Shown here: positions 2,554 through 52,405 of the stretch, piece after piece
Numbering within the stretch: the stretch's first letter is position 1
Layout of the letters: each line of letters opens with the position of its first letter
IMG/VR virus record: IMGVR_UViG_3300032313_000840
Span: 1-64,000 of that record
Origin: a virus
Length of the DNA stretch: 64,000 nt
Direction: 5' to 3' (one strand)
Notes under the pieces: generated by a model
Database searches by the model: none
What the model was told of the DNA's origin: nothing
The model's input: only the letters and a program-made list of their open reading frames with translations
Position numbers and translations under genes: made by a program

Positions 2554-2856
2554 TTATTGTGGGTCTATTGAGACCTGTTTTACTTCTGATTTTATAAGAG
2601 TGCTGCTTGGTTCTTGTTCAAGGCAATTGATCGGCTTATTGATCAAGTTTCTATATCCCCACATCAATCCAAGCAATGCCACGGGACCATACCAGAACAA
2701 CCAACCATAGGATTCAGTTGTTGATCCTGGTGCAGCAATCTTATCTTTCAAAGCCATCATTACTACATTGTCGCTAGTATTGTCTGGAACAATGAAAGGT
2801 TGAGTAGAGCATCCTGCTAAAACCATCAGTGCAATTATAGATGTTAAAAATTTCAT
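2554..2856 (-). CDS. Small lipoprotein with a transmembrane segment
   Basis: This 100-aa protein begins with a lipoprotein signal peptide: the hydrophobic stretch ends in LAGC, so Cys16 would be the lipidated residue after signal peptidase II cleavage. A second hydrophobic segment, WLFWYGPVALLGLMW, lies at about residues 52-66, followed by a charged tail. A lipid anchor plus an internal TM would suit an envelope-spanning role such as a spanin, but there is no sequence proof. AAGGAG precedes the ATG. Neighbours are a candidate holin and a membrane-anchored GAF-like protein. Confidence 0.65.
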   Translation of the reverse strand: MKFLTSIIALMVLAGCSTQPFIVPDNTSDNVVMMALKDKIAAPGSTTESYGWLFWYGPVALLGLMWGYRNLINKPINCLEQEPSSTLIKSEVKQVSIDPQ

Positions 2857-2866
2857 TATATGCTCC

Positions 2867-3301
2867 TTATTTTGTTGTTGCTGCAGCAGTTCCGAAGTAG
2901 AAACCTACGATACTCAATAGAATCTCTCTGTTCTCAGAAGACCAGAAGAATCCATTGATCTCAACGAATCCTTTCTTGGCAGTTGCTGGAATCAAACCAA
3001 ACAAAGCCTCTGGATTTTTTACATCAACTTCTACGAATGTTGGGACACCGAAGAATGGAAGAATAAATGGAGCAGCAAAAGCTCCAAACAAGACTGTGAG
3101 TACGATGATTTGTCTTACAACACGGCCAGCATCAAGTGGAACTCTTTCTGCAGCCTTGTTTTGATTTTCTGTAGTTTGTTTATTCGCTTGAATAAGTTGG
3201 TTGAACATTTCCTTTTGATCTGCGCTCTTCTGAGCCATGAACTTGAAAAGGAAGCCAGTCGCCCCGCCCGCCACCATACTAATCAATTCTGGAGAAAACA
3301 T
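2867..3301 (-). CDS. Multi-span membrane protein, candidate holin
   Basis: The 144-aa protein has an N-terminal amphipathic/hydrophobic segment (SMVAGGATGFLFKFM), a charged Gln/Lys/Asn stretch, a strong TM at about residues 64-87 (IIVLTVLFGAFAAPFILPFF) and a C-terminal hydrophobic segment (ILLSIVGFYFGTAAA). Size and topology resemble phage holins, but similar proteins of unknown function occur in marine T4-like phages, and no endolysin is visible in this window. It sits between the lipoprotein and the GAF-like gene on the same strand. Confidence 0.5.
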   Translation of the reverse strand: MFSPELISMVAGGATGFLFKFMAQKSADQKEMFNQLIQANKQTTENQNKAAERVPLDAGRVVRQIIVLTVLFGAFAAPFILPFFGVPTFVEVDVKNPEALFGLIPATAKKGFVEINGFFWSSENREILLSIVGFYFGTAAATTK

Positions 3302-11423: not shown

Positions 11424-11651
11424 ATGGATGATAATGAAGACATGACAGAAGAAGATATCTTAAAGGCCAGTGAAGCCTATCTTACTTTTGTGCAGCGATT
11501 TGGTGAATACGTAAAAGAGATGGACCCAGGTCTGTGGTCCCGAGCACGAGAATACGCTGCGGACTTTACAAAGATTGATGGTGTGAGAGTTGAACTTGTA
11601 GATGAGGATGAAGATGACACAGATTCAGAACATAAAAATGGAGCAGACTAA
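11424..11651 (+). CDS. Small acidic protein
   Basis: This 75-aa protein is strongly acidic at both ends (DDNEDMTEEDILKASE; DEDEDDTDSE) around a helical middle. It starts one base after the primase stop and overlaps thyX by 14 nt, so it is part of the same transcript. No domain is recognised. Confidence 0.55.
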   Translation: MDDNEDMTEEDILKASEAYLTFVQRFGEYVKEMDPGLWSRAREYAADFTKIDGVRVELVDEDEDDTDSEHKNGAD

Positions 11652-12324
11652 GTACTTTGTCCTAGATCACGGACATGTTGATCTAGTGGACTATATGGGT
11701 TCTGATCTGAGTGTTGCAAATGCAGCCAGAGTTTCTTTCAATAAAGAAAGTTATATGGCAGATGACGGTTCTCTCTTAGAGAGAGACGCAAAGCTTATTC
11801 GCTATCTTGCAAAGCACAATCACTTCACTCCATTCTGTCATGCACAGATTAGTTTGCGCATCAAGTGCCCAATCTTTGTTCGTGCACAACTTGGCAAGCA
11901 TCAGATTGGTCTTGTGATGAATGAGGTCAGCCGTAGGTACGTCACCTATGAGCCCGAGATCTATACTCCACTGTGGAGAAGTTCTCCTACTGATGGAGCA
12001 AAGCAAGGCAGCAGTGGTCCAATTGAAGATATGGATACATGCATCAAACTTCGTCAGGAGTATGATGGTGTTGCAAAGGAATGTTTGGATCTTTACAATA
12101 AACTTTTGGCCGATGGTGTTGCACCTGAACAGGCGCGTTCAATATTGCCACAAGGAACTTATACGGAATTTGTGTGGACTGGTTCTCTCTATGCATTTGC
12201 CCGCGTTTATAACTTGAGAATCGATGCACATGCTCAATGGGAAATTCAGGAATATGCAAAAGCAATTGACAAATTAATTGCTCCTCTTTTCCCGGTTTCG
12301 TGGCAGACATTAACGTCTAGATAA
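11638..12324 (+). CDS. thyX: FAD-dependent thymidylate synthase ThyX
   Basis: The 228-aa enzyme makes dTMP from dUMP using methylene-tetrahydrofolate and FAD. The ThyX signature region reads KHQIGLVMNEVSRRY at about residues 86-100. The usual RHRxxS part is altered (K-H-Q) but NExSxRY is kept, a pattern I associate with phage ThyX. Further family marks are the early NAARVSF and the C-terminal LPQGTYTEFVWTGSL and HAQWEIQEYA. The start at 11638 overlaps the preceding small gene. Together with dUTPase and NrdJ it supplies thymidine nucleotides. Confidence 0.92.
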   Translation: MEQTKYFVLDHGHVDLVDYMGSDLSVANAARVSFNKESYMADDGSLLERDAKLIRYLAKHNHFTPFCHAQISLRIKCPIFVRAQLGKHQIGLVMNEVSRRYVTYEPEIYTPLWRSSPTDGAKQGSSGPIEDMDTCIKLRQEYDGVAKECLDLYNKLLADGVAPEQARSILPQGTYTEFVWTGSLYAFARVYNLRIDAHAQWEIQEYAKAIDKLIAPLFPVSWQTLTSR

Positions 12325-12329: not shown

Positions 12330-13223
12330 ATGTCTATTATTTTTACAGGCGGTAGTGGGTTTTTAGGTAAAACATTTAAAGACTACAATTTTACTGCAAA
12401 TTATTTGAGTTCGAAAGATATTGATCTTAAAGATCAAAAATCTACATTTGAATATTTATTTGCACAAAAGCCAAATTGTATAATTCATGCAGCAAATAAA
12501 GTTGGTGGTATTTTAAAAAATAGCCAATGTATGTATGAATTTTATCATGATAATCTATTAATGAATACAAATGTAATTGATTATTGTGTAAAAACGAATA
12601 CAAAATTAGTTTTAATGAGTAGTACTTGTGTTTATCCTAAAAATGCAAGCAGCTATCCAATGACAGAAAATATGCTTCATAATGGATTGGCAGAAGAAAC
12701 AAATTTAGGATATGCTTTTTCTAAAAGAGCCGCAGATATTCAACTATGGTCTGCCAATAAACAATATGGATATAGCAACTATACTATATTTTATTTGAGC
12801 AATCTTTATGGAAAGCATGATCATTATTTTTCTAAAGATTCTCATTTTGTTTCATCATTCATAAGTAAAATACTTTCTTCAGAAAATAATACAATTGAAA
12901 TGTATGGAACTGGTGCCCCATTAAGACAATTTACATATTCAGATGATATTGTAAAAATAACAAAATATTTTATTGAAAATAATATATTGGGATCATTTAA
13001 TATTTCAACTCCAGAAAATTTGTCTATTCGCACCATGGCAGAAATCATTTTGGATAAATTTAATATTAAAAAAGAATTGTCATTTAATGGTACATTGGAT
13101 GGAGTTTTTAGAAAAGACGTTTCATCTGAAAAATTGTTGACTATGATGCCAAATTTTCAATTTACAAAATTCAGTGAAGGTATAGAAAAATTAGCAAAGG
13201 ATATTACATGTTTTGGAATTTGA
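12330..13223 (+). CDS. NAD(P)-dependent sugar epimerase, GDP-L-fucose/colitose synthase-like
   Basis: The 297-aa short-chain dehydrogenase has Rossmann motif TGGSGFLG at residues 6-13, the GDP-fucose-synthase hallmark SSTCVYP, and catalytic Tyr/Lys in GYAFSKRAAD. GDP-fucose synthases epimerise and reduce GDP-4-keto-6-deoxymannose; the close relative ColC acts on the 3,6-dideoxy product to give GDP-colitose. The next gene is ColD-like and overlaps it by 16 nt, which favours the colitose role. Coding sequence is very AT-rich. GDP-4-keto-6-deoxymannose would have to come from the host. Confidence 0.82.
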   Translation: MSIIFTGGSGFLGKTFKDYNFTANYLSSKDIDLKDQKSTFEYLFAQKPNCIIHAANKVGGILKNSQCMYEFYHDNLLMNTNVIDYCVKTNTKLVLMSSTCVYPKNASSYPMTENMLHNGLAEETNLGYAFSKRAADIQLWSANKQYGYSNYTIFYLSNLYGKHDHYFSKDSHFVSSFISKILSSENNTIEMYGTGAPLRQFTYSDDIVKITKYFIENNILGSFNISTPENLSIRTMAEIILDKFNIKKELSFNGTLDGVFRKDVSSEKLLTMMPNFQFTKFSEGIEKLAKDITCFGI

Positions 13224-14341
13224 TGCCCAAAGAAAATATAAGTGAATATGAACGTAAAGAGTTGTCTAATTTCATTTTGAATACAGACAAATATACTCAA
13301 GGCCATTATGTAAAACAATTTGAACAGGAATGGTCAAATTGGCAAGAATGCAAGTATTCTGTATTTGTAAACTCAGGTTCTTCTGCTAATTTGATGTTAG
13401 TAAAATCTTTGTATGATTTATATGGTCCTGGTGGTATGATTTGCCAAGCATGTACTTGGCCAACAAATATCAATCCAGCAATGCAATTAAAGGAAAGTAC
13501 TTTTTTACAACTTTGTGACAATAATTTAAACAACTTTGGTTTTGATATTGAACAGTTAAAAAATTATATTGTTTCTTTGAAACCAGATTACTTGTTTTTA
13601 ACTCATATTCTTGGATTTAATGGTGCTACCGAGGAACTTATTGCTCTATGCCAAGAAAACAATATCAAAATTATAGAAGATTGCTGTGAATCTCACGGTG
13701 CATTGTTCAATGGTAATAAAGTAGGAAATATTGGTTTGGCCGGAACTTTCTCGTTCTATTATGGTCATCATATAACGACTATTGAAGGTGGTATCATTTC
13801 AACAAATAATGAAGAATTGTATCATCAACTACTTTTGAATCGATCTCATGGATTTTTAAGAGAACATCCAAATAAGGAAGCGATAGAAACTTCATGCGAC
13901 CGTAGATTTACATTTTTGACAGATGGATTTAATTTTAGAAATACAGAAATAAATGCATATCTTGGTATAATGCAATTAAAAAAATTGGATAATAATATAA
14001 AGGTTAGAAATAGTAATTATAACTATTATATTTCAAAATTGGACCCATCAAAATATGAGACTAATTTTAATTCAAATGGAATAAGTTCATTTGCAATGCC
14101 CATTATATCAAAAAAGAATAATATTAAAGACTTGTCATCCAAATTAACTGATGCAGGTATAGAAAACAGACCATTTATTGCCGGAAATCTATTTAAACAA
14201 CCATATATGAAAAAAGTAAATATGTACAATAGTTTTCCAAATGCAGACTATCTGCATAATAATGGATTATATGTTGGCAATAACCAATTTGTAGAGTATA
14301 CTATGATTGATAAATTGTTATATATTCTTAATAATGAATAA
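13208..14341 (+). CDS. ColD-like PLP-dependent sugar 3-dehydratase (DegT family, Lys replaced by His)
   Basis: The 377-aa DegT/DnrJ/EryC1-family enzyme has the fold marks NSGSSANLM (about 55-63), IIEDCCESHGA (PLP-ring contacts) and the active-site loop FSFYYGHHITTIEGG. Aminotransferases of this family carry the PLP lysine in SFxxxK; here His187/His188 stand there. This substitution is known from ColD, GDP-4-keto-6-deoxymannose 3-dehydratase, and related deoxygenases. With the fucose-synthase-like gene upstream, GDP-L-colitose synthesis is the most economical reading. An aminotransferase role is unlikely without the lysine. Confidence 0.85.
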   Translation: MFWNLMPKENISEYERKELSNFILNTDKYTQGHYVKQFEQEWSNWQECKYSVFVNSGSSANLMLVKSLYDLYGPGGMICQACTWPTNINPAMQLKESTFLQLCDNNLNNFGFDIEQLKNYIVSLKPDYLFLTHILGFNGATEELIALCQENNIKIIEDCCESHGALFNGNKVGNIGLAGTFSFYYGHHITTIEGGIISTNNEELYHQLLLNRSHGFLREHPNKEAIETSCDRRFTFLTDGFNFRNTEINAYLGIMQLKKLDNNIKVRNSNYNYYISKLDPSKYETNFNSNGISSFAMPIISKKNNIKDLSSKLTDAGIENRPFIAGNLFKQPYMKKVNMYNSFPNADYLHNNGLYVGNNQFVEYTMIDKLLYILNNE

Positions 14342-14498
14342 AAGTAAAAAATTAAAATATTTGGTACTATATGATTTTTATAGAAAACCATATTTTATAA
14401 CAGTTTACAATAAAAAAGAATTAAAATATGTTAAAAGTATTTTAAAAGACGGAGAAGTATACAAAATTTTAAATACAACACCATTTATAGGATGGTGA
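14334..14498 (+). CDS. Small hypothetical protein
   Basis: This 54-aa Lys/Tyr-rich protein (NKSKKLKYLVLYDFYRKPYF) overlaps the end of the ColD-like gene by 8 nt and shares its AT-rich composition, so it belongs to the same transcript. The function is not recognisable. Confidence 0.5.
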   Translation: MNKSKKLKYLVLYDFYRKPYFITVYNKKELKYVKSILKDGEVYKILNTTPFIGW

Positions 14499-14536: not shown

Positions 14537-16426
14537 ATGGCAGAAATTTTATCACCATTTCAATCGTTTATTTTCATCTCTCGCTACTCTCGCTGGCTCA
14601 ACGACCAAAATCGTCGTGAGACTTGGGATGAATGTGTAGACCGTTGGTGGAAGTATTTTACTGGTAAGGTTCCACAACTTGCTGAACGTCCAGATGTAAA
14701 GGAAGCAATTCTCAATCTAGAAGTTCTTCCTTCCATGCGCAGCCTCATGACTGCTGGTCCTGCACTGGACCATGACAATACTTGCTTGTACAATTGTTCT
14801 TATCTACCTATTGATTCCATTGATTCATTTGCAGAACTGTTTGTTGTTTTGATGAATGGAACTGGAGTTGGTTATTCTGTTGAACGTCAATACACAGATA
14901 AGCTTCCAACCGTATCAAACAAGATTGTAAAAGATTTTGATAATGTAATTGTAGTCGAAGACTCAAAGGAAGGTTGGGGAAATGCAATCAAGACCATTTT
15001 TGCAAACCTTTATGAAGGCAAGCATCCTAAGTGGGATCTTTCAAAGATTAGACCTGCTGGTGCACGACTTAAGACTTTTGGTGGTCGTGCTAGTGGGCCT
15101 GCTCCTCTAGACAATCTATTCAAGTTTGTCGTGAAGATTTTTTACAACGCACAAGGACGCAGACTGACTGCTCTTGAATGCCACGATGTTTGCTGTGCTA
15201 TTGCGAATGCAGTTATCGTTGGTGGGGTTCGTCGTTCTGCCATGATCTCGTTGAGTGATCTTGCTGATCGTGAGATGGCACTCTGCAAGAGCGGTGCATG
15301 GTGGGAGCAGGCTGGCTTCCGTTCATATGCCAACAACTCTGCTGTGTATCGTGGGCGTCCTCCAATGGGTCAATTCCTTGAAGAGTGGACCTCGCTATAC
15401 AATAGCCACAGTGGTGAGCGTGGAATGATCAATCGTAAGGCACTACAGGAACAGGCTGCAAAGTCTGGCCGTGATCCAGACTGCGAGTATGGCACCAACC
15501 CATGCTCAGAGATCATTCTTAAGCCATTTGAATTCTGCAATCTTTCTACAGTCGTAGTTCGTCAAGACGATACTGCAGCAACACTGAAGAAGAAGATTGA
15601 GATCGCTACAATCATTGGTACTGTTCAATCTACCTTTACCAACTTCCCATACCTTCGTCCAGAGTGGAAGAAGAACTGTGAAGAGGAAAGACTGCTTGGC
15701 GTATCTATGACAGGTATTTTTGACAACAAGCTTACCAGTGGTTTGGAAGGCAAACCAAAGCTTGTTCGTCTTCTTGAGACTCTTCGTGATCATGCGACTG
15801 CGACGAATCTCAAGTGGGCAGAGAAGTTGGGAATCAATCCTAGCAAGTCAGTTACTTGCGTGAAGCCTGAAGGCACTACATCGTGTTTGGTGGACTCTGC
15901 CTCGGGTCTGCATCCTCGCTATGCGGATTATTATTACCGCAGAATTCGTCTGGACAAGAAAGATCCTCTGTACAATTTAATGAAGGATCAAGGCGTCCCG
16001 TGCGAGGATGATGTCATCAACCCAACTTCTACTGCCGTCTTTACGTTTGCGATGAAGGCTCCAAAGGGAACCATGACCACTGAGGAACTTCGCGCACTTG
16101 ACCATCTTGATTTGTGGAAAACTTATCAAGAGCACTTCTGCCATCACAAGCCATCAATCACCGTCAACTACAAGGACTCTGAATTCCTTGAAGTCGGCAA
16201 CTGGCTTTGGGAAAACTTTGATGTCGCAACAGGCATCTCGTTCCTTCCCGGTGGTGACAGTCATACCTATGCTCAGGCACCCTTTGAGCAGATTGATTCT
16301 GCAACCTATTCAGCACATCCTAAAGTTAAAGTTAACTTTAAAGATCTGTCTAAATACGAGGCAGAAGACAATACTGAATCCGCAAAGGAATATGCTTGTA
16401 GTGCAGGCGGATGTCAGATAGTGTAA
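14537..16426 (+). CDS. nrdJ: Ribonucleotide reductase, adenosylcobalamin-dependent (class II)
   Basis: The 629-aa enzyme reduces ribonucleotides to deoxyribonucleotides using a B12-derived radical and needs no separate radical subunit. Visible marks are NGTGVGYSVERQY, GPAPLDNLFKF, GGVRRSAMISLSD, the substrate-site NPCSEIILKPFEFCNLS with paired cysteines, VKPEGTTSCLVDSASG, and the redox tail ending CSAGGC. Length and motif set fit the monomeric NrdJ of cyanophages and lactobacilli. A late-type box and AGGA lie upstream, and the stop is followed at once by tRNA-Asn. Activity depends on host cobalamin. Confidence 0.94.
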   Translation: MAEILSPFQSFIFISRYSRWLNDQNRRETWDECVDRWWKYFTGKVPQLAERPDVKEAILNLEVLPSMRSLMTAGPALDHDNTCLYNCSYLPIDSIDSFAELFVVLMNGTGVGYSVERQYTDKLPTVSNKIVKDFDNVIVVEDSKEGWGNAIKTIFANLYEGKHPKWDLSKIRPAGARLKTFGGRASGPAPLDNLFKFVVKIFYNAQGRRLTALECHDVCCAIANAVIVGGVRRSAMISLSDLADREMALCKSGAWWEQAGFRSYANNSAVYRGRPPMGQFLEEWTSLYNSHSGERGMINRKALQEQAAKSGRDPDCEYGTNPCSEIILKPFEFCNLSTVVVRQDDTAATLKKKIEIATIIGTVQSTFTNFPYLRPEWKKNCEEERLLGVSMTGIFDNKLTSGLEGKPKLVRLLETLRDHATATNLKWAEKLGINPSKSVTCVKPEGTTSCLVDSASGLHPRYADYYYRRIRLDKKDPLYNLMKDQGVPCEDDVINPTSTAVFTFAMKAPKGTMTTEELRALDHLDLWKTYQEHFCHHKPSITVNYKDSEFLEVGNWLWENFDVATGISFLPGGDSHTYAQAPFEQIDSATYSAHPKVKVNFKDLSKYEAEDNTESAKEYACSAGGCQIV

Positions 16427-27333: not shown

Positions 27334-27350
27334 ATGAATAGTATACTCCT

Positions 27351-27358
27351 TATTTATG
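27351..27358 (-). promoter_or_regulatory. T4-type late promoter
   Basis: CATAAATA on the minus strand, 17 nt before the ATG at 27333, with AGGAG in between. Confidence 0.6.
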
Positions 27359-27367
27359 GCCTGTCAA

Positions 27368-27394
27368 ATAACAAAACCCCTTTTGAGGGGGGTT
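27368..27394 (-). terminator. Intrinsic terminator of the tmRNA coding piece
   Basis: On the minus strand AACCCC/GGGGTT closes an 8-nt loop, followed by TTTTGTTATTTG. Confidence 0.75.
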
Positions 27395-27555
27395 CAGGGT
27401 CGATTCAGATGCGGGAGACCAAACCCCACTGCTTCAAGCAGCCATTGCTAATTGGTTAGCAATTATTTTTTGCAACTGTTTATTTGCGACACTTGTTACC
27501 CGTGTCGGGTATCTCCTTCTTCATTACTTTGCGCCAATCTATTCCTTTCGACCCC
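27395..27555 (-). ncRNA. tmRNA coding piece with proteolysis-tag reading frame
   Basis: After the 5' acceptor strand comes pseudoknot PK1. ACCC 27510-27507 pairs with GGGT 27501-27498, and GACAC 27506-27502 pairs with GTGTC 27492-27488. The resume codon GCA (27487-27485) follows directly. The tag frame 27487-27434 encodes ANKQLQKIIANQLAMAA and ends in TGA, itself in a CTGCT/AGCAG hairpin. The tag is longer than the 10-residue E. coli tag and ends in AMAA, close to the ALAA that ClpXP recognises. The 3' end is taken at the following terminator and is approximate. Confidence 0.87.
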
Positions 27556-27651
27556 GGTGACCCGAAGCCTAGGACTTCGGGAAATGCCCCGCTGCTACGA
27601 GGACTTGATTCGCCGTTTTCAGAGGATTGCAGATTCTCTGACTTAGGCTAA

Positions 27652-27715
27652 TGGAGTCGGGGGGATTCGAACCCCCGTCTTGTACGCATTTCAATCCAAT
27701 ATCAACAATACCATT
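27652..27715 (-). ncRNA. tmRNA acceptor piece (tRNA-like 3' domain)
   Basis: The T stem GGGGG/CCCCC (27676-27672 and 27664-27660) closes the canonical loop TTCGAAT. It is followed by the 3' acceptor strand CGACTCC and discriminator A27652. CCA is not encoded. Upstream TGCGT can pair with GCGCA of the coding piece (P2). The 5' end is approximate because tRNA-Tyr ends at 27724. Confidence 0.8.
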
Positions 27716-27723
27716 TTATTTAG

Positions 27724-27805
27724 TGCGAGCTGAGGGATTCGAACCCCCGTAGGCGATGCCATCTGATTTACAGTCAGACCTCGTTGGCCACTTGAGTAAA
27801 CTCGC
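27724..27805 (-). tRNA. tRNA-Tyr (anticodon GTA)
   Basis: Acceptor GCGAGTT pairs with AGCTCGC; anticodon loop CTGTAAA between TCTGA and TCAGA; long variable arm; T arm with GGTTCGAATCC. CCA is not encoded. Confidence 0.93.
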
Positions 27806-43766: not shown

Positions 43767-44308
43767 AGAAATTTAAAGAATTTTTAAGTGAGGATGCACA
43801 GGAGTTCTCATCAGCCGGAACCAGCATCAACAAGAACAAACTTCCAACTGGCTACTCAACTGTGCATAAGAAGATTGGCTGGCAGAAGGGGACTACCCAC
43901 ATTGATATTGGTGGGGGTAAGTTTGACAATGGTGTAGAATTTTTACAAAATTTGGGAGTGAATGCTCATGTCTACGATCCCTACAACCGCCCAGCAGAAC
44001 ACAATCAGAAGGTCATGGAGACTGTAGGGAAAGAAGGGGCAGATACCGCATCTCTCTTCAATGTTCTGAATGTCATCAAGGAACCCGAATACCGCCATGA
44101 GGCTCTGAAAACTGCACATAGCACACTCAAGCCCGGTGGAAAAATATTCATTTCAATCTACGAAGGCGACAAGTCAGGCCAAGGAAAGAAAACCAAGAAA
44201 GATTCGTGGCAGAACAACGCCCCAACACAAGCATACCTAGAAGATGTAAGAAAGGTGTTTCCTAATGCAACAATGCAGCATGGAATCATACACGGAGTCA
44301 AACAATGA
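43763..44308 (+). CDS. Class I SAM-dependent methyltransferase-like late protein
   Basis: This is a 181-aa protein. The leader MKKFKEFLSEDAQEF is followed by a Rossmann methyltransferase: HIDIGGGKFDNGVEFL (SAM-binding glycine loop), VNAHVYDPYNR (acidic residue after strand 2), SLFNVLNVIKEPEYR (motif IV position) and LKPGGKIFISIYEG. Homologues are frequent in phages without a known substrate. Combination with a capsid-targeting-like N-terminus is notable: the enzyme could be injected with DNA. It is coupled by ATGA overlaps to both neighbours. Confidence 0.75.
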   Translation: MKKFKEFLSEDAQEFSSAGTSINKNKLPTGYSTVHKKIGWQKGTTHIDIGGGKFDNGVEFLQNLGVNAHVYDPYNRPAEHNQKVMETVGKEGADTASLFNVLNVIKEPEYRHEALKTAHSTLKPGGKIFISIYEGDKSGQGKKTKKDSWQNNAPTQAYLEDVRKVFPNATMQHGIIHGVKQ

Positions 44309-44478
44309 AGAAATTTAAAGAATTCTTAGAAAATTTTGAAGCATACATGGATAAGCCAAAGGGAAAGGGTTGGAGAAGTGCAAAATCAAAGATTGCACCA
44401 ACCACAGAGATTACATCTCAAGAGGACACCTCTCAAGAAGAGATAGCCAATGGATTGGACATGGAAGGTACGAAGTAA
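44305..44478 (+). CDS. Short late protein with capsid-targeting-like N-terminus
   Basis: This 57-aa protein reads MKKFKEFLENFEAYMDKPKG, followed by a basic stretch and a Ser/Thr/Glu tail. Its first eight residues are identical to those of the methyltransferase-like protein upstream. It starts in an ATGA overlap with that gene. Probably another packaged peptide; no enzymatic motif. Confidence 0.6.
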   Translation: MKKFKEFLENFEAYMDKPKGKGWRSAKSKIAPTTEITSQEDTSQEEIANGLDMEGTK

Positions 44479-44482
44479 GCGA

Positions 44483-45022
44483 TTATCTTTCCCAATAGAC
44501 TGTCTCGCCTCTTTCGTAAAATTTTAAATTATTCTTGGAATCTTCTTTCACGAAGTGCTTATCCTTCACCGTGAAGTGATTATTGGGAACAAGGGCAAAG
44601 TACCCACAGTCAAGCGTTATCAGACTCAAGGGCTTGTGTTCGGCTGGGTAGCGGGAATATCCGTCCTCCCAGTCGATTATTATTCCAGTATGTCTACCAT
44701 TCAACCCCGTATGAAAGACACTCACAGGTAGCCCCTCCAAGTAGGTTGTCATAAAAGTTTCAATATTATTGCCCATTCCACCCCAAGGTTGAATATTAGC
44801 ATTACTGTTATTATCAAAGACAGCAGTAGTGGACAAGGCACAAAGGGGAAGACCAGACCAATGTGCGCCAGATTCAAGAAGCACATGGCAGTATATTAAC
44901 TGACCCGGACGAGAATATACACCATGCCATATAGCAGGAGTATATCCATCAGGCATATTAGGTCCAAGAAAAGAATTTTTAACATTTACATATAAATGAT
45001 ATGGTAAAGTAGCATTTCTCAT
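44483..45022 (-). CDS. Hypothetical protein of unknown family
   Basis: This is a 179-aa protein. The start at 45022 (MRNATLPYHLYV) follows a TATATT box by eight bases; an upstream in-frame ATG overlaps the promoter. The sequence is beta-rich with many aromatic and His residues (GAHWSGLPLCALS, HTGIIIDWEDGYSRYPAEHK), compatible with a small metal-binding or carbohydrate-related enzyme, but I recognise no family. It is the last gene before the 1-kb non-coding region. Confidence 0.6.
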   Translation of the reverse strand: MRNATLPYHLYVNVKNSFLGPNMPDGYTPAIWHGVYSRPGQLIYCHVLLESGAHWSGLPLCALSTTAVFDNNSNANIQPWGGMGNNIETFMTTYLEGLPVSVFHTGLNGRHTGIIIDWEDGYSRYPAEHKPLSLITLDCGYFALVPNNHFTVKDKHFVKEDSKNNLKFYERGETVYWER

Positions 45023-45030
45023 TATAAAGA

Positions 45031-45058
45031 AATATACAATAAAATACAAGAAAGTCAA
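45031..45058 (-). promoter_or_regulatory. Sigma70-like promoter (near-leaderless)
   Basis: TTGACT (45058-45053), 16 nt, TATATT (45036-45031), 8 nt, ATG at 45022. Confidence 0.75.
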
Positions 45059-45180
45059 TGAACAAAGAGAGGGATATACAGGGGGGTAAAGGTGGGGGAG
45101 AGTGGGAGTGTGTGGGGTAAAGAAATTTTAAGAATATTTTGAGAAGATTGAGTTAGACCCCATCCCTCAAAGCCCCTTCG

Positions 45181-45250
45181 TTTGCCCTTTAACGCCCTTT
45201 AGAGCCCTTTTAAGCCCTTCAAGGCCCCTAGAGAGCCTTTAAAGCCCGTT
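45181..45250. repeat. Seven 10-bp tandem units (nnnGCCCTTT)
   Basis: From 45181 the sequence runs in consecutive 10-bp units: TTTGCCCTTT, AACGCCCTTT, AGAGCCCTTT, TAAGCCCTTC, AAGGCCCCTA, GAGAGCCTTT, AAAGCCCGTT. The period equals about one helical turn, so the GCCCTTT cores would lie on one face of the DNA. No ORF crosses it. Confidence 0.75.
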
Positions 45251-45259
45251 CGCCTATAA

Positions 45260-45900
45260 GGCATTCTAGCCTGTCAAGCAATTCTTAGAGATATTATACA
45301 ATTTTTAAGAAATTTTAGACAATTATAGAAACCGTCCATACAATCCTAGATACCGTCCAGGCAATCCAGGCTCTGTCCAGCTCAATCCCGTCCAAGGGGA
45401 GAGCAATTATTATAATTTCCAGAATACCGTCCTATATCCCGTCCAGACCATGTCCTGGTGTGTGCCATACGGTATACCCCCAGGAACCCCTGATAGTAGC
45501 CAGGATTTTCAGAAATTTTTGAATCCTGTCCTGAATCCCGTCCGCTAATATTTTCAATTTTATTTGAAACTTCCAAGGGACGGATAACCATGGCACCGGC
45601 CAGACCGATAACCACGAGTCCGATAAGTATAGCACCGATAACGGTCAACGTCCGATAACCCCCTGCCTCACATCTGACGATTATAGGACACAGAGGCTGG
45701 GGGGTTATCGGTCGCATGAACAGTCTGATAACTATACACCAGATCTGGGGGTAGTCAAGTACTAGACCACAAGTCCGATAAGACGTCTGAGCTGGAGCTC
45801 CTGGATCCAGGAACCCGGTCCAGTGAATTAATTAAATTATTATTCTGTCCCAGAGACGCTCGCCGGCCTCTCCCAGCTCCAGCTGCACGCCGTCCCGTCC
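45260..45900. repeat. Non-coding region rich in CCGTCCA and GTCCGATAAC motifs
   Basis: No credible gene is seen. Between 45320 and 45560 CCGTCC or CTGTCC occurs about ten times. Between 45580 and 45790 the motif [A/G]CCGATAA[C/G] or its complement occurs about eight times, both orientations. One solitary CTGATAGTAGCC half-site is at 45490-45501. The same motifs recur at 50086-50102 and 58195-58208. An origin, packaging or partition-type site is possible. Confidence 0.5.
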
Positions 45901-45924
45901 AGACTGCTAATATCGCCCCGTCCA

Positions 45925-45985
45925 GACTACTATCAGGGGACGCGGAAATAAATCAAATTTCCTCGGAGGAAATTTGATAGTAGTC
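45925..45985 (-). repeat. CTACTATCA composite terminator element, copy 1
   Basis: Arms GACTACTATCA (45925-45935) and TGATAGTAGTC (45975-45985) enclose an ATCAAATTTCC/GGAAATTTGAT hairpin that reads as a terminator on the minus strand, downstream of the VWA gene. Confidence 0.8.
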
Positions 45986-45999
45986 CAGGTACACAGCCA

Positions 46000-46031
46000 C
46001 CCAGGACTGGCTCTCTCCTTCCAGTCCTGGG
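46000..46031 (-). terminator. Stem-loop after the VWA gene
   Basis: Perfect 11-bp stem CCCAGGACTGG/CCAGTCCTGGG with a 10-nt loop, 27 nt after the stop of the VWA gene. Confidence 0.65.
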
Positions 46032-46057
46032 CGACCATGTATGAATTAAAAACGATC

Positions 46058-48235
46058 TTACCTGCCCTTGCGATCCCGGAACTTCATGCCCTCCGGGAAG
46101 CAGGGGAGTCCGTAGATCCCGGAGTCCATCTTGCGGATGGGCTGACCCGCCACGATGTCCACATACCGGGTGAGGAACACGCGGCTACCTGCCCGCTTGC
46201 CCATCGTCTTGATGAACTGGTTCTTCACCTTGGTGAAGTTACCTCCGGTGGCAATCGCCTCCTCGTCCTTGACGGGCTTCGGGGTCTGAATGAGGAAGTA
46301 CGAATCGTAGCCGGGGAAGGTATCTTCGTGCAGGACGAGGCATCCCTCCTTGAACGCTTCAGCCGCAGCCTTGTACCGCTCCGAATCTCCAACGGTCACA
46401 CCACCCTTGTAGTGATGGGAGATCGAATCGGCATTCTTCTGCTTCTCCTGTTCGCTCAAGCAGAACTGCTCAAAGCAGCGTTCCGTCAGGATACGAGTGG
46501 GCATCACATACATTCCAACGCATCGGGCGTTCAACTTGGTGCGGAGCGAATTGAGCATGGCGCAGATGACGCCATCGGGCAGATTCGTCCTGCCGTTCTT
46601 GTTGTCGATGACGGTGACCGTATCAAGGATCTCGTTCGTCACGGTGAGGGAAGTACCTTCGCCGTACCAGTAGACTCCATCCTCCTTGGAGGTGCTGATG
46701 TGGTTGGGGCAACCGTCCGTCACGACCATGATCGTGGGGATCTGAATGTTGTTCTCCTGCACCCATCCCGCCATAAACTGGGAAGTGAGGGCAATGCACT
46801 CCACCGTGGGCGTACCGTTCAGGGTGAGGTAACGGGAAGTGGGGCGGGTCTGCTGCACATAGGTTTCGTAGATGTACGCACACAGACGCTCACGCTTGGC
46901 CGCATCGTCCTTGGAGGAGGCAATGTTCAGCAGCCTAGCCGTCCCGATGTGCATACCCGTGGGGCAGTCACGATTCAAAGCCTGCGCGCACCATTCACGG
47001 TCGAACTCGTAGGAGAACTTGTCGGGGTTTTGCTTCCTCCATGCATCACACGCAGCCTGATACTCGGGATCAAGGTTGCCGTAGACATCGGTGTAGCCGA
47101 ACACCTCAAACGGGATCTTCGCCTTCTCGCAGAACCACACCAACTGGAGAACCTGAAGGTAGGCGTGGCCGATGGTCTGACCCATGCTGCCGCTGAAGTC
47201 AAGCATGAACACGATGCCGTGGTTCTTGCCGTCCTGCTTGACGATCTTCGACAGGAAGATATCGTCATGGGTGCGGTACTGGTGGAGGCGGTCAAGGTTC
47301 AGCATCCCGGTCTGCTTCGGACGCTCACGGCGGATCTCGTCCGCAGCCTTCTTGCGCTCAAACTGCGCGGCCATCTGACGGACGAACGCATCGGACTCAC
47401 GGACGAACTGGCGGTACTCCTCAAGGAGCAGCGGCCTGTTGCTGTTGCCCTCGTAGTCGTTGAGGATGGTTTCCGTGCTGATGATGTGCTTGGACAGATC
47501 CTTGACCCCGGTGATGGTGACCACCGCGTCCTGATACTGCGAACCGTCCTTGCGGCGGAAGTCACCGGGGACATCGTTCTTGTCGCCCATGATCTTGTCC
47601 TGCTCCTTCTCACCCTGCTTGCCACCCTTGGCAGCAGCAGCCTCCATCTCCTCGCGCATCTTCTTCATGGAGGGGTGGTCGTACAGGAACTTGGCGACCT
47701 CAAAGACCTGATCGAAATTGACCACACCGTCCACCATGTCCACGACCTCCTGCTCCGTCCCCTCAAAGGTCATGGGGATGAAGCCGGGGATGCCGAACTT
47801 GAAGTGAATGTTGAGACGATTGAGGAACCCGGCCTTCGCCAAGTCCATCTTCTTGAAGCCGAACAGGTCAAGGTCTGCGATCTCCTTGTAGCCAAGGAAG
47901 AAGTCACGGCGAGTGCCGGGGAACTTCTGCTTCATCAACTTCTCGATGCGGACATCTTCGATGATGTTGGCGATCCGCTGAAGGAGCATGGCGTTGTAGC
48001 CGTCCGCCTCCGCAGCCTTCAACAACTCCTCGCTGCGCTCGTAGGGAGTCCACATGGCGTGGCTGATCTCGTGGGCCACGAGCATGGTCTTGACGGTTTC
48101 GGTCACATCCCACATCGGCATGATGAGGTGACGCGACTTGACATCGAACGATGCGGTTTCAGCGTCCTTGGAGAAGGAGAACGAAATGTTCTCGGATGCG
48201 AGAGCCTTGGCAAAGATGGAGAGAGAGGTGTTCAT
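46058..48235 (-). CDS. Metallopeptidase-like/VWA-domain protein
   Basis: This is a 725-aa protein. Near the N-terminus VAHEISHAMW gives the zinc-peptidase motif HEISH at residues 55-59. A long charged middle leads to a von Willebrand A domain with MIDAS motif DFSGS at about residues 346-350 and VVTDGCPNH further on. This resembles VWA proteins with N-terminal putative metallopeptidase domain (DUF2201 type) that partner MoxR ATPases. The MoxR-like gene lies one gene upstream on the same strand. GC-rich codon use. The start at 48235 is fixed by a leaderless promoter. Role: probable remodelling or activation of a target complex. Confidence 0.82.
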   Translation of the reverse strand: MNTSLSIFAKALASENISFSFSKDAETASFDVKSRHLIMPMWDVTETVKTMLVAHEISHAMWTPYERSEELLKAAEADGYNAMLLQRIANIIEDVRIEKLMKQKFPGTRRDFFLGYKEIADLDLFGFKKMDLAKAGFLNRLNIHFKFGIPGFIPMTFEGTEQEVVDMVDGVVNFDQVFEVAKFLYDHPSMKKMREEMEAAAAKGGKQGEKEQDKIMGDKNDVPGDFRRKDGSQYQDAVVTITGVKDLSKHIISTETILNDYEGNSNRPLLLEEYRQFVRESDAFVRQMAAQFERKKAADEIRRERPKQTGMLNLDRLHQYRTHDDIFLSKIVKQDGKNHGIVFMLDFSGSMGQTIGHAYLQVLQLVWFCEKAKIPFEVFGYTDVYGNLDPEYQAACDAWRKQNPDKFSYEFDREWCAQALNRDCPTGMHIGTARLLNIASSKDDAAKRERLCAYIYETYVQQTRPTSRYLTLNGTPTVECIALTSQFMAGWVQENNIQIPTIMVVTDGCPNHISTSKEDGVYWYGEGTSLTVTNEILDTVTVIDNKNGRTNLPDGVICAMLNSLRTKLNARCVGMYVMPTRILTERCFEQFCLSEQEKQKNADSISHHYKGGVTVGDSERYKAAAEAFKEGCLVLHEDTFPGYDSYFLIQTPKPVKDEEAIATGGNFTKVKNQFIKTMGKRAGSRVFLTRYVDIVAGQPIRKMDSGIYGLPCFPEGMKFRDRKGR

Positions 48236-48241
48236 GCGCAC

Positions 48242-48270
48242 ATTGTAACCGATGCGGGGGAAGAAGTCAA
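48242..48270 (-). promoter_or_regulatory. Sigma70-like promoter of the VWA gene (leaderless)
   Basis: TTGACT (48270-48265), 17 nt, TACAAT (48247-48242), 6 nt, ATG at 48235. Confidence 0.88.
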
Positions 48271-48291
48271 CCCACAAACAAAGTTTATTTT

Positions 48292-48371
48292 GCGTCCCAT
48301 AACGTCCTGTCTGGCTACTATCAGGGCGTCCAATAAAATCAGAAAGCCCAGACGGGCTTTCTGATAGTAGC
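48292..48371 (-). repeat. CTACTATCA composite terminator element, copy 2
   Basis: GCGTCCCATAACGTCC (48292-48307), GGCTACTATCAG (48313-48324), hairpin ATCAGAAAGCCC/GGGCTTTCTGAT (48338-48365) and CTGATAGTAGC (48361-48371). On the minus strand the hairpin is followed by TTTTATT, a good intrinsic terminator. Confidence 0.88.
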
Positions 48372-48380
48372 TCACAGATG

Positions 48381-48411
48381 CTGCCTCTCCCCCCGCAAGG
48401 GGGGGAGAGGC
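48381..48411 (-). terminator. GC-rich stem-loop after the gene at 48422-48643
   Basis: CCTCTCCCCCC/GGGGGGAGAGG with a CTTG-type loop, between the stop codon and composite element 2. Confidence 0.65.
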
Positions 48412-48421
48412 ATGAACAGCA

Positions 48422-48643
48422 TCAGACGGTGACGGGAGCAATCAGAGGCGTCAGATCGTAGACGCCCTTGCTGTCCGTCTTGCAGTCCTTCAGCACCCAA
48501 GTCGGGATGCCCTTCATGTTGATGGACTGTGCGACTGCGAGGAGGTCGGCCTTGCTGAAGTTGTTGGTGTTACCGCCGTGAACGGTATCCGCGAACTGCT
48601 TGGCTGCGGCGACGAAACGATTGCGCTTGTTGAGGTATGGCAT
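48422..48643 (-). CDS. Small hypothetical protein in the MoxR/VWA operon
   Basis: The 73-aa protein reads MPYLNKRNRFVAAAKQFADT with a middle LLAVAQSINMKGIPTWVLKD. It lies 22 nt downstream of the MoxR-like gene, with AAGAAAG before its ATG, so it is cotranscribed and could be a third component of that system. No family is recognised. Confidence 0.6.
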   Translation of the reverse strand: MPYLNKRNRFVAAAKQFADTVHGGNTNNFSKADLLAVAQSINMKGIPTWVLKDCKTDSKGVYDLTPLIAPVTV

Positions 48644-48665
48644 TTTCTTTTTCTTTCTTTCTTGG

Positions 48666-50015
48666 TTAGGCGTTCATGGCGTACTGGGTGTCGGTGTCGG
48701 GGTTGGACAACTTATCCAACTGTGCTTTCAATTCTGCGATCTTCTTCTGCTCTGCGGTCAGAGAGTTCACCGGGTTGCTCACCGGGGCATCCTTCATCCC
48801 CTCCGGGACAGGGAGGATCGTGGGGTCGATCTTCGTGTAGAGGTTGAAGAACGCCTCCTTCGTGGACGCATCGAACCGCGTCAGCGTCAACTTGATGGCC
48901 TTCTCCTTGTCGCCAAAGATGGCGAACGCCTTGCACACTTCCTCCAAGCGGCGGGTGGTGATGATGTCATCCAGTCCGCCCTCCTTGAAGCCCATGCGGA
49001 TCGTTTCCGCCCACTTCGTGAGGTACTGGGCGAACTCCTTGTCCTCCTTGCCGTATGCCTTCATCTTGCGGATGATGATACGCGCTTCGATGGTGCGATC
49101 CGCGTAGTCCTGCTCAAACCAGTAGGAGAAGCGGTCAAGGAACGCCTCGTTCATGCAGCGCGTACCCACGAACCGATCAGACTCGCCCTTGCCCTTGGTG
49201 TTGGCAGTCGCCACCACATTGAAGCCGGAAGCGGGCTTGATGAACATACCGATCTTCTTGATGTAGATGCCCTTGCCCTCAAGCACGGGCTGAAGGCACA
49301 TCATGCGCTCCGTCCCGAGGTCGATCTCGTCCAACAGGAGGATAGAGCCGCGCTGCATGGCCTGAACCACGCCACCGAACACGAACTTCGTTTCGCCGTT
49401 GACGAGGCGGAAGCCACCGATGAGGTCATCCTCGTCCGTTTCGGCGGTGATGTTGACGCGAATGCACTCGCGGCCCGTGGAGGCGCAAATCTGCTCCACC
49501 ATCGTGGTCTTGCCGTTGCCGGACATACCCGTGATGTAGACGGGAGCGAACTGCTTGGAGGCGAGGATGGTGGAGATGTCATCGTGGTGACCCCACGGAA
49601 CGAAAGTCTCGTTCTTGACGGGGACGAGCGAAACATCGGAGGACGGCATGACGAGGTTGTAGGTGTTGCTGTTCATGTTGCTGATTGTATCACAAGTTTC
49701 GGAGGAAGTCAAGGTTTCGGAAGAAGATTCGGAAATATTTTCTTCCACGGTATCGGACTCTGCGGGATTGTATTCAAGCACGACCATCTCCGGGATGATG
49801 TACTTGCCACGACCTGCACGGCGGTTCTTGGGCTGAACCAGCCAAGCCGGGAGGACTCTGTAGGAATGCTCGCTACTAAGGGCATAGGACTGGCCAAGTG
49901 CCTCAAGGCATTGCTCACGGGTGTAGACTGCTTCCCCGATGGTCTGCGGAGTGCCGAACAGGATCTGAAGGGCATTGAGGAAGTTACGCTTGCGAATGTC
50001 GATGTTGCTGTTCAT
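48666..50015 (-). CDS. MoxR/CobS-like AAA+ ATPase
   Basis: This is a 449-aa protein. Residues 1-140 are an N-terminal adaptor with a basic MNSNIDIRKRNFL start. The AAA+ core has Walker A GMSGNGKTT (about 162-170), ETDEDDLIGGFRL, Walker B GSILLLDEID, VVATANTKGKGE (sensor 1) and RFSYWFEQDY with the arginine of sensor 2 nearby. CobS-type ATPases power cobaltochelatase with the VWA protein CobT; MoxR ATPases remodel complexes with VWA partners. The VWA-metallopeptidase gene downstream supports the second reading. The tail is a short coiled coil. Confidence 0.87.
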   Translation of the reverse strand: MNSNIDIRKRNFLNALQILFGTPQTIGEAVYTREQCLEALGQSYALSSEHSYRVLPAWLVQPKNRRAGRGKYIIPEMVVLEYNPAESDTVEENISESSSETLTSSETCDTISNMNSNTYNLVMPSSDVSLVPVKNETFVPWGHHDDISTILASKQFAPVYITGMSGNGKTTMVEQICASTGRECIRVNITAETDEDDLIGGFRLVNGETKFVFGGVVQAMQRGSILLLDEIDLGTERMMCLQPVLEGKGIYIKKIGMFIKPASGFNVVATANTKGKGESDRFVGTRCMNEAFLDRFSYWFEQDYADRTIEARIIIRKMKAYGKEDKEFAQYLTKWAETIRMGFKEGGLDDIITTRRLEEVCKAFAIFGDKEKAIKLTLTRFDASTKEAFFNLYTKIDPTILPVPEGMKDAPVSNPVNSLTAEQKKIAELKAQLDKLSNPDTDTQYAMNA

Positions 50016-50021
50016 GCCGCA

Positions 50022-50050
50022 ATCTTACCACACAATCTTTCTAAAGTCAA
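50022..50050 (-). promoter_or_regulatory. Sigma70-like promoter of the MoxR-like gene (leaderless)
   Basis: TTGACT (50050-50045), 17 nt, TAAGAT (50027-50022), 6 nt, ATG at 50015. Confidence 0.8.
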
Positions 50051-50085
50051 GTTTGGTCTGAAGATTTTTTATCCAGGTCCGATAA

Positions 50086-50167
50086 CCGGTCCGATAACGT
50101 CCACTACTATCATAATAATATAAACAGCCTCAGAAATTCGCTTAAAGGGCGAATTTCTGATAGTAGC
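50086..50167 (-). repeat. CTACTATCA composite terminator element, copy 3
   Basis: GTCCGATAACC and CCGATAACGTCC (50087-50102), CACTACTATCA (50102-50112), hairpin TCAGAAATTCGC/GCGAATTTCTGA (50130-50160) and TGATAGTAGC (50158-50167). The T tract is weaker here than in the other copies. Confidence 0.82.
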
Positions 50168-50177
50168 TCAAAGAAAC

Positions 50178-50199
50178 AACCCCCGCTTGCGCGGGGGTT
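50178..50199 (-). terminator. Stem-loop after the gene at 50242-50487
   Basis: AACCCCCGC/GCGGGGGTT with TTGC loop, between that gene's stop and composite element 3. Confidence 0.65.
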
Positions 50200-50241
50200 G
50201 GTATGAAAGGGAGTTTATCTCCCCGGCATCTCACCGGGTAC

Positions 50242-50487
50242 TTACACTCCCGTATTGTAGTAGTTCTTCTCGGTCTTGGACTCGCTGACCCTGCAAATCT
50301 TTTCAAGGGCCACGATGCGCTGCCACAACTTCTCTTGCTCAAGGTAGAGATCCTTGACCATCTCGTCTTGATGACGAACGATGCTGTTCAACTTCTCGTT
50401 CAGTCGAACGCGGAAGTAGGCGATGGCGAAGTAGGCGGCACCTGCGAGGGTGATGATGGTGACGAGCGTGTTGAGATCAATGTTCAT
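50242..50487 (-). CDS. Small membrane-anchored coiled-coil protein
   Basis: This is an 81-aa protein with an N-terminal TM (LVTIITLAGAAYFAIAYFRV) followed by a coiled coil (EKLNSIVRHQDEMVKDLYLE) and a polar tail. The topology, a membrane anchor plus cytoplasmic helix, is common in small phage proteins affecting host envelope or superinfection, but no function is recognised. It is driven by its own leaderless promoter. Confidence 0.65.
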   Translation of the reverse strand: MNIDLNTLVTIITLAGAAYFAIAYFRVRLNEKLNSIVRHQDEMVKDLYLEQEKLWQRIVALEKICRVSESKTEKNYYNTGV

Positions 50488-50493
50488 GTCTCT

Positions 50494-50521
50494 ATTATAC
50501 CTCTTGGTTTGGGGTTGTCAA
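50494..50521 (-). promoter_or_regulatory. Sigma70-like promoter (leaderless)
   Basis: TTGACA (50521-50516), 16 nt, TATAAT (50499-50494), 6 nt, ATG at 50487. Perfect consensus hexamers. Confidence 0.9.
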
Positions 50522-50589
50522 GTCTCGGACGGAAAAAAAGTTTCTTTTAGTTACAACATCTGACCTAAATATAAGGAGGTGTTATAACT

Positions 50590-50967
50590 ATGAGACCAAA
50601 GAAAAATTTTTGGAAATGTCAGGACTGTGGAGTGGAACTAAAACGGAAACAAGTTCGATGCCGTGGATGCCATGATATCAGGCATCCTGATATGACCATT
50701 GAAGAATCGGCTTATGGTGACAAAGGTTGGCCAAACACTTATGCACGTATCAGAGATAAGGCCAAGTATGTCGTTAAGCATCTTGAATGGACCTGCTGTC
50801 GCAATTGTGGGTATGACAAACATTTTGAAATTTGTCATATCAAAGCCATAAAAGATTTTTCAAAAGACACTTTATTAAGTGTAGTGAACGATCCTTCTAA
50901 CCTTGTTCCTCTATGCCCAAATTGCCATTGGGAGTTTGATAGAGGAATCTTAAAATTGGACGGGTGA
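50590..50967 (+). CDS. HNH endonuclease with N-terminal zinc ribbon
   Basis: In this 125-aa protein, an N-terminal zinc ribbon (CQDCGVELKRKQVRCRGC) is followed by a typical phage HNH core: WTCCRNCGYDKHFEICHIKA, then NLVPLCPNCHWEFD. AAGGAGG before the ATG gives it one of the strongest Shine-Dalgarno sequences in the window, unlike its leaderless neighbours, which suits a recently arrived homing-type gene. Its last 12 bp overlap the 3' end of the opposite-strand tRNA-Ile. Confidence 0.85.
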   Translation: MRPKKNFWKCQDCGVELKRKQVRCRGCHDIRHPDMTIEESAYGDKGWPNTYARIRDKAKYVVKHLEWTCCRNCGYDKHFEICHIKAIKDFSKDTLLSVVNDPSNLVPLCPNCHWEFDRGILKLDG

Positions 50968-51038
50968 GATTCGAACTCACGATGCCGAAGCGGGCAATTA
51001 TAAGTCGCCTGCTGCTCTCCACCGCAGCGCGCCGTCCA
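50956..51038 (-). tRNA. tRNA-Ile (anticodon TAT)
   Basis: Acceptor TGGACGG/CCGTCCA; anticodon stem GGCGA/TTGCC with loop CTTATAA; T arm GTGAG-TTCGAAT-CTCAC. It would read AUA codons, frequent in the AT-rich late genes. No CCA. Confidence 0.9.
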
Positions 51039-51148
51039 GTGGTGGAGCCTTCATACGGATGCTCCGGTGTCCGTGCAACCGTAGGTTGCCTCTATACGGT
51101 TGTTGTAGTTACCGCCAAACTCATTAATAATATATCTGATTGAGGTAC

Positions 51149-51176
51149 ATTGTACCACCTCTTTCTTGTTTGTCAA
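51149..51176 (-). promoter_or_regulatory. Sigma70-like promoter for tRNA-Ile
   Basis: TTGACA (51176-51171), 16 nt, TACAAT (51154-51149), about 105 nt upstream of tRNA-Ile; the transcribed spacer holds two small hairpins and no gene. Confidence 0.75.
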
Positions 51177-51177
51177 G

Positions 51178-51251
51178 CGTTCCCGGCAGGATTCGAACCT
51201 GCAACCTACAGATTAGAAATCTGTGGCACTATCCAGTTGTGCTACGGGAAC
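51178..51251 (-). tRNA. tRNA-Arg (anticodon TCT)
   Basis: Acceptor GTTCCCG/CGGGAAC; anticodon stem ACAGA/TCTGT with loop TTTCTAA; T arm GCAGG-TTCGAAT-CCTGC. No CCA. Confidence 0.93.
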
Positions 51252-51378
51252 AAATCGGAAGGGACTACTTCAACGGTACTAGGGGAAGAATGCATTTTTC
51301 TTTTAATACATTCCGCAAACCCACCGACCGTCTTCATACCCTTCCGGGTTGGGTGCCTTGAAGAAGGACACCCGGTAA

Positions 51379-51463
51379 TAGCGCGGGCGGGATTCGAACC
51401 CGCAATGTTTCTTATGTATCAGATTTTGAGTCTGACGTGTTTCGCCAGTTTCACCACCGCGCC
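51379..51463 (-). tRNA. tRNA-Leu (anticodon CAA)
   Basis: Acceptor GGCGCGG/CCGCGCT; anticodon stem TCAGA/TCTGA around CTCAAAA; long variable arm as in tRNA-Leu; T arm GCGGG-TTCGAAT-CCCGC. No CCA. Confidence 0.92.
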
Positions 51464-51471
51464 ATGTAGGT

Positions 51472-51500
51472 ATTGTATCATACCTTTGTTGTCTTGTCAA
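51472..51500 (-). promoter_or_regulatory. Sigma70-like promoter for tRNA-Leu and tRNA-Arg
   Basis: TTGACA (51500-51495), 17 nt, TACAAT (51477-51472), 8 nt to the tRNA-Leu 5' end. It lies within the last codons of the HNH gene. Confidence 0.82.
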
Positions 51501-51948: not shown

Positions 51949-51982
51949 AGGCTCCTATACCTATTTAGAAACCTATGCCATT

Positions 51983-52279: not shown

Positions 52280-52294
52280 GTTGTTTTCTCCGAA

Positions 52295-52367: not shown

Positions 52368-52375
52368 GAATGCCC

Positions 52376-52404
52376 ATTGTAACCGATGGGCTGCGGTTTG
52401 TCAA
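52376..52404 (-). promoter_or_regulatory. Sigma70-like promoter for tRNA-Lys
   Basis: TTGACA (52404-52399), 17 nt, TACAAT (52381-52376), 8 nt to the tRNA 5' end. Confidence 0.85.
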
Positions 52405-52405
52405 G

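Follow-up and report, generated by a model that had tools for sequence, protein, structure and literature searches.

The window analysed here, 64,000 nt in length, comprises bases 1-64000 of an 81,931-bp IMG/VR record that is probably an incomplete genome. The record carries a T4-like gene set, with a DNA polymerase, UvsX, a DnaB-like helicase, a primase, ThyX, a ribonucleotide reductase (RNR) and a RuvC-like resolvase. The gp43 of the window is nearest to the polymerases of cyanomyoviruses (41% identical), and its CobS-like protein has pelagimyophage HTVC008M as the top-ranked match (46%). Three ORFs lie between thyX and the RNR gene in a phage context, with gp43, UvsX, the DnaB-like helicase and the primase nearby, and their presence varies among phages, as befits phage auxiliary metabolic genes. 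The features of the locus are as follows:

11602..12324, + strand: thyX-type thymidylate synthase, flanking the insertion site on the left (PHROG 85, E 9e-69)
12330..13223, + strand: GDP-fucose-synthase (GFS)-type SDR, 297 aa, putative ColC-like 5-epimerase/4-reductase (family matches, GxxGxxG and catalytic columns, tree, AU test)
13208..14341, + strand: predicted ColD-like PMP-dependent NDP-4-keto-6-deoxyhexose 3-dehydratase of the DegT fold, 377 aa, with His187 in place of the PLP lysine (sequence, alignment, AlphaFold model)
13766..13768, + strand: codon for H187, the histidine of the active site that corresponds to ColD H188 (alignment)
14334..14498, + strand: orf54, a 54-aa ORF and third gene of the cassette, found only with the cassette
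14537..16426, + strand: ribonucleotide reductase, flanking the insertion site on the right (PHROG 367, E 2e-172)

The SDR and ColD-like ORFs overlap by 16 nt, and the positions and overlap that an initial sequence-only reading had given for them were confirmed. The ATG of orf54 overlaps the stop codon of the ColD-like gene (ATGAATAA). No match to orf54 was found in Pfam or PHROG; the ORF is present at every cassette-bearing locus that covers its position and at none of the empty-site loci. A promoter and terminator scan was uninformative (26 promoter-like sites vs 20.7 expected).

Two further features of the window were observed. A permuted (two-piece) tmRNA adjoins tRNA-Tyr at positions 27343-27742 on the minus strand (Rfam RF04321, 75 bits; ARAGORN tag ANQLAMAA); it also occurs in seven of the ten related phage contigs searched and gave no blastn match among annotated phages. 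The region 44000-60000 has a GC content of 0.50-0.56, compared with ~0.38 elsewhere, and holds CobT- and CobS-like genes together with four tRNA genes.

Gene content of the thyX-RNR junction

Searches with RNR and ThyX identified 115 different contigs covering the junction. The site is empty in 104 of them, the two genes being 2-26 nt apart, while six contigs hold the cassette of SDR gene, ColD-like gene and orf54, three (L186, L200 and L266) hold an 839-nt insert, and two have other short inserts. Among contigs whose RNR is at least 95% identical to that of the window, the junction is empty in 23, occupied by the cassette in five and by the 839-nt insert in two. The SDR gene, the ColD-like gene and orf54 are a 2.2-kb swappable accessory cassette. 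The protein encoded by the 839-nt insert passes the cut-off for Anp1 (PF03452), whose members are mannosyltransferases, and this Anp1-type glycosyltransferase as the alternative cargo of the site counts in favour of the sugar pathway proposed below. Inspection by eye of another contig (L239, positions 2644-3191) showed a thyX region broken by a LAGLIDADG-like homing endonuclease ORF, followed by a repeated thyX C-terminal end.

The ColD-like protein and its active site

The product of the second cassette gene matches Pfam PF01041 (DegT/aminotransferase; E 2e-52). Its motif FSFYYGHHITTIEGG spans residues 181-195, and H187, the first His of the pair in this motif, aligns with H188 of ColD, the residue mutated in PDB entries 3b8x (H188N), 2r0t and 3gr9 (H188K/S187N). 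All 173 strong homologues, drawn from viral and bacterial loci, have histidine at this position; lysine was found in 6 of 12 weaker paralogues from the same loci and in none of the strong homologues. Identity as a PLP aminotransferase is ruled out by the invariant histidine, and a chance origin of the motif by homology that spans the whole length of the protein. The proposal made from the sequence, that His replaces the PLP lysine as is known for ColD, thus stands.

Among solved structures, ColD entries are the nearest in sequence and in fold alike. In a phmmer search of the PDB, the protein scored 211 bits against ColD (2gms), 102 against RfbH/E1 and 91 against the best Lys-type aminotransferase; with a profile of six phage sequences, ColD reached 310 bits and E1 205, and 9wvy (labelled putative 3-dehydratase) and 7b0m (a sugar aminotransferase) came next at 144 to 147. 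An AlphaFold model built from 34 sequences (pLDDT 93.1) retrieved ColD as the first 12 PDB matches in a fold search (TM 0.89-0.92), followed by E1 and then GDP-perosamine synthase. Residues W84, D158, E161, S182, R218, N242, R244 and R321 are common to ColD and invariant in the viral and bacterial sets.

In a tree of 64 proteins, the window protein groups with its viral relatives (100/99), with proteins of two bacterial loci, L095 and L102, next out (96/94). Classical ColD forms a separate clade (100/100) of 2gms, the operon proteins of L345, L346 and L348-L350, and some further relatives, and forcing the window protein into this clade was rejected by the AU test (p 1.6e-5). RfbH-like proteins form a clade of their own in the best tree (100/99), in which classical ColD and the phage/environmental clade join to the exclusion of RfbH on a weak branch (78/81).

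The SDR partner and the probable GMD step

The gene that overlaps the ColD-like gene from upstream had been taken for a relative of GDP-fucose synthase, as ColC is, and further analysis bears this out. The best NCBIfam match of its product is the GDP-L-fucose synthase model NF047922 (155 bits, E 2.6e-45; equivalog cut-off 500). The protein keeps the GxxGxxG motif and the catalytic set S98, C100, Y128, K132 and H172, corresponding to S107, C109, Y136, K140 and H179 of E. coli GFS, so that it could perform both epimerisation and reduction. In the SDR tree it belongs to a separate clade whose bacterial members, from L095, L102, L104 and L106, are each encoded next to a ColD-like gene. Close relatives of both window genes are found in one of these bacterial loci, L095 (46% and 38% identity), which suggests that the two genes have travelled as a pair.

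The four bacterial loci with the nearest SDRs have the SDR gene, the ColD-like gene and a GMD gene scoring above the TIGR01472 cut-off side by side. Among 77 viral relatives (L018-L094), a GFS-type SDR gene lies directly upstream of the ColD-like gene in 52 and downstream in 5, and a GMD gene is found within 5.5 kb of the ColD-like gene in 50. Synechococcus phages S-CAM7 and ACG-2014f have consecutive GMD, GFS, ColD-like and GT11 genes, and L018, the closest of the viral relatives located in glycan clusters (ColD-like protein 71% identical), carries a partial GMD gene together with GT2, GT10 and GT11-like genes. These GMD neighbours argue for GDP-4-keto-6-deoxymannose as the predicted substrate of the ColD-like protein.

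The 82-kb record itself contains neither a GMD nor a GT2 glycosyltransferase gene. Four long relatives of the window lineage (135, 126, 117 and 95 kb) have GMD-like genes (381-406 bits; cut-off 415) inside glycan islands, upstream of genes that we named gp47/gp46-like from their sequence. The islands of two of them, G373 and G374, hold a His-type ColD-like gene (motif FSTYYGHHFSTIEGG or FSTYFGHHFSTIEGG) whose product is ~35% identical to that of the window, and the G374 island also has GFS, GT10 and GT11 genes. By synteny, base 1 of the window corresponds to ~69.9 kb of G374, which has its GMD gene at 54.6-55.6 kb, and lies near 57.7 kb of G373 (extrapolated), with a GMD gene at 84.8-85.8 kb. 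By analogy, a counterpart glycan island of the window phage would be located off the left end of the fragment, at a distance of roughly 14-28 kb.

Several side observations concern the wider gene neighbourhoods. Besides GMD, the variable islands of the four long relatives (L354-L357, records G373-G376) contain several sugar and transferase genes, and their contents differ strongly among relatives. Six viral contigs (L039, L060, L076, L082, L084 and L087) encode two His-type DegT proteins within a few kb: the ColD-like one and another, with the motif CSFYPAHH, that belongs to the RfbH-like clade. Some phages may thus produce dideoxy sugars of two kinds. An Azospirillum plasmid (L347) has a ColD relative beside genes for TPP-dependent dehydrogenases and no adjacent GFS-type SDR gene, a gene set that suggests a branched dideoxy sugar pathway.

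A candidate pathway, its alternatives and known systems

For the cassette we infer PMP chemistry, GDP specificity, a product, its transfer to the host surface and an effect on superinfection. A phage or host GMD, encoded outside this fragment, would convert GDP-mannose to GDP-4-keto-6-deoxy-D-mannose. The ColD-like enzyme, assigned to the second step by sequence, fold and active site, would hold PMP and remove the C3 hydroxyl with His187 as acid/base, glutamate regenerating the PMP. The SDR, assigned to the third step by its family and kept residues, would then epimerise C5 and use NAD(P)H to reduce C4, so that GDP-L-colitose or a sugar of closely similar stereochemistry results. Finally, a transferase of GT10/GT11 type or from the host may place the sugar on a host surface glycan during infection, and the altered receptor could stop superinfection or re-adsorption to debris. 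The cassette genes are optional cargo of one site, the related genes of the lineage's other phages residing in a separate glycan island.

We consider it probable, from sequence and model, that the second and third steps amount to synthesis of a GDP-3,6-dideoxyhexose, and stop just short of favouring L-colitose as its exact identity. Superinfection exclusion is a plausible, if tentative, benefit to the phage. Two reports on related phages (PMC9602691, PMC7029224) propose host-surface modification for such genes. The presence or absence of the cassette at one site in near-identical phages would allow a clean natural test of its effect on superinfection.

The sequence-only reading had described a ColC/ColD-type pair that would turn GDP-4-keto-6-deoxymannose into a colitose-type 3,6-dideoxyhexose. 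A His-type dehydratase does stand beside a GFS-type SDR, and a GDP-3,6-dideoxyhexose is likely, given the GMD gene beside the pair in the nearest bacterial loci. The colitose stereochemistry, however, is unproven: the phylogeny that had been proposed against ColC and ColD places both proteins outside the classical clades, membership of which is ruled out by the AU tests. For the SDR, the classical ColC reference consisted of the SDRs encoded between gmd and colD in the bona fide operons of L345, L346 and L348-L350, and constraining the window SDR to their clade was rejected (p 5.9e-5). The pair likely works like ColC and ColD from outside those clades, a position that leaves room for a different substrate and stereochemistry.

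It is possible, though on balance somewhat unlikely, that the cassette yields a GDP-3,6-dideoxyhexose distinct from L-colitose, with the SDR, as a member of its own clade, only reducing or setting another stereochemistry. Besides the rejected ColC grouping, a grouping with the TSTA3-type clade was also rejected (p 0.018), and the closest kin of the SDR all lie beside ColD-like genes, as expected of a specialised partner; the Azospirillum locus suggests in addition that ColD-type enzymes may serve other pathways. Against this, the epimerase residues of GFS (Cys109 and His179) are kept, and the SDRs from bona fide gmd-SDR-ColD operons have them too. We also think it unlikely that the sugar decorates the phage (tail fibres, capsid) or its DNA in place of the host surface. 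The S-CAM7 and ACG-2014f clusters are indeed found a few kb upstream of tail-fibre genes, but the genes around the window cassette are those of replication and nucleotide metabolism instead of tail genes, and the islands resemble polysaccharide clusters (GT2, GT10, GT11 and methyltransferases). More doubtful again is an ordinary GDP-fucose synthase, with the ColD-like enzyme diverting part of the shared intermediate, so that fucose and a dideoxy sugar are both made or the main effect is a drained host GDP-fucose pool; the best family match of the SDR and the GT10/GT11 (fucosyltransferase) family genes in a related island would fit, but the score of 155 is far below the equivalog cut-off and the nearest kin of the SDR are ColD partners.

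A histidine in place of the lysine is common to RfbH/E1 and so does not by itself prove GDP specificity. A CDP- or TDP-sugar 3-dehydratase of the RfbH/E1 or SpnQ type was weighed as an alternative. RfbH is the best NCBIfam model for the ColD-like protein (173 bits, under the cut-off of 423), though with no ColD model among the matches, and joining the environmental clade with RfbH gave an AU p of 0.068 (not rejected at 5%), an exclusion by phylogeny that is marginal only. According to a review (PMC8987622), a [2Fe-2S] cluster is present in E1 and SpnQ and not in ColD, and the histidine serves both as base and as acid. The cluster cysteines of RfbH (194, 196, 200 and 204, numbered in the aligned RfbH stretch) are replaced by R, gap, gap and P in the window protein, and one of these positions is Arg (R218) throughout the viral and bacterial sets. 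ColD moreover leads RfbH by ~100 bits, and the usual neighbour is GMD, not CDP-glucose dehydratase. An RfbH/E1 identity was rejected on the missing cysteines and the lower scores, and the CDP/TDP alternative as a whole is improbable. Of the two clusterings that had been named as refuting a ColD assignment, neither did so: the one with Lys enzymes falls away, the protein being far from them and most like ColD, while the separation from RfbH is clear in the cysteines and less so in the tree.

The SDR and ColD-like genes have GC3 values of 0.15 and 0.21, compared with 0.38-0.50 in the nearby genes tested, and this anomaly points to horizontal acquisition. Within the cassette-bearing phage group, dN/dS is 0.20-0.28 for the SDR gene and 0.08-0.12 for its ColD-like neighbour, with L008 included at a dS of about 1; both genes are under purifying selection and have been maintained. 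That the cassette is a decaying remnant of host DNA with no role in the phage is thus very improbable, despite the deviating GC3 and the few relatives that have the cassette, as the ORFs are intact in the contigs holding them and dN/dS is low.

Returning to the preferred reading of a GDP-3,6-dideoxyhexose module, its reach may extend well beyond the window, as ColD-like relatives are encoded by at least 576 viral contigs. In a separate set of genome contigs, an alignment query also found relatives. Homologues in public records are annotated as aminotransferase, hypothetical protein or CDP-dehydrase. Such dideoxyhexoses form an O-antigen sugar class that is known chiefly in certain enterobacteria and vibrios; if the assignment is true, aquatic phages routinely command their synthesis. 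Phage-borne nucleotide-sugar genes, including those of lipopolysaccharide type, are already known, and nothing on point was found in the open-licence literature for phages together with colitose or ColD. As far as that literature shows, the assignment of a GDP-type 3-dehydratase with an SDR partner, its viral abundance and the exchangeable thyX-RNR cassette are new. Taken furthest, the junction would be a cargo site for interchangeable surface-sugar modules in a widespread T4-like lineage, one module (with the divergent SDR and orf54) leading to an undescribed GDP-3,6-dideoxyhexose, fed by a phage GMD in a remote glycan island and switching the sugar put on the host; this is speculative, and unlikely to hold in full.

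Among known enzymes, ColD/WbdK (PDB 2gms, 3b8x, 3gr9) is the closest analogue, sharing the fold (TM 0.92), the His for Lys, the lack of Fe-S cysteines, residues W84/D158/E161/S182/N242 and an SDR gene directly upstream, as in bona fide gmd-SDR-ColD operons. The window protein differs in being only ~34% identical, in its position outside the classical clade and in having no GMD gene adjacent in this fragment. RfbH/E1 (CDP-4-keto-6-deoxyglucose 3-dehydrase) has the DegT fold and the His for Lys in common with it, but is 24% identical in the fold alignment, carries the [2Fe-2S] cysteines and belongs to another clade in the best tree. The SDR shares family, gene order and all five catalytic residues with ColC (GDP-L-colitose synthase), and yet belongs to a divergent clade of its own; with GDP-L-fucose synthase (E. 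coli Fcl, human TSTA3) it has family and catalytic residues in common, and differs in its low score against the equivalog model and its linkage to a ColD-like gene. The cyanophage glycan clusters, as given in the S-CAM7 and ACG-2014f sequence records and in the report on S-SCSM1 (PMC9602691), likewise comprise phage-borne genes for GDP-mannose-derived sugars, and in S-CAM7 and ACG-2014f these include a His-type ColD-like gene (product 38-43% identical to that of the window). They are, however, large clusters with GMD and GT11 genes in one row, whereas the window has a detached three-gene cassette at the thyX-RNR junction.
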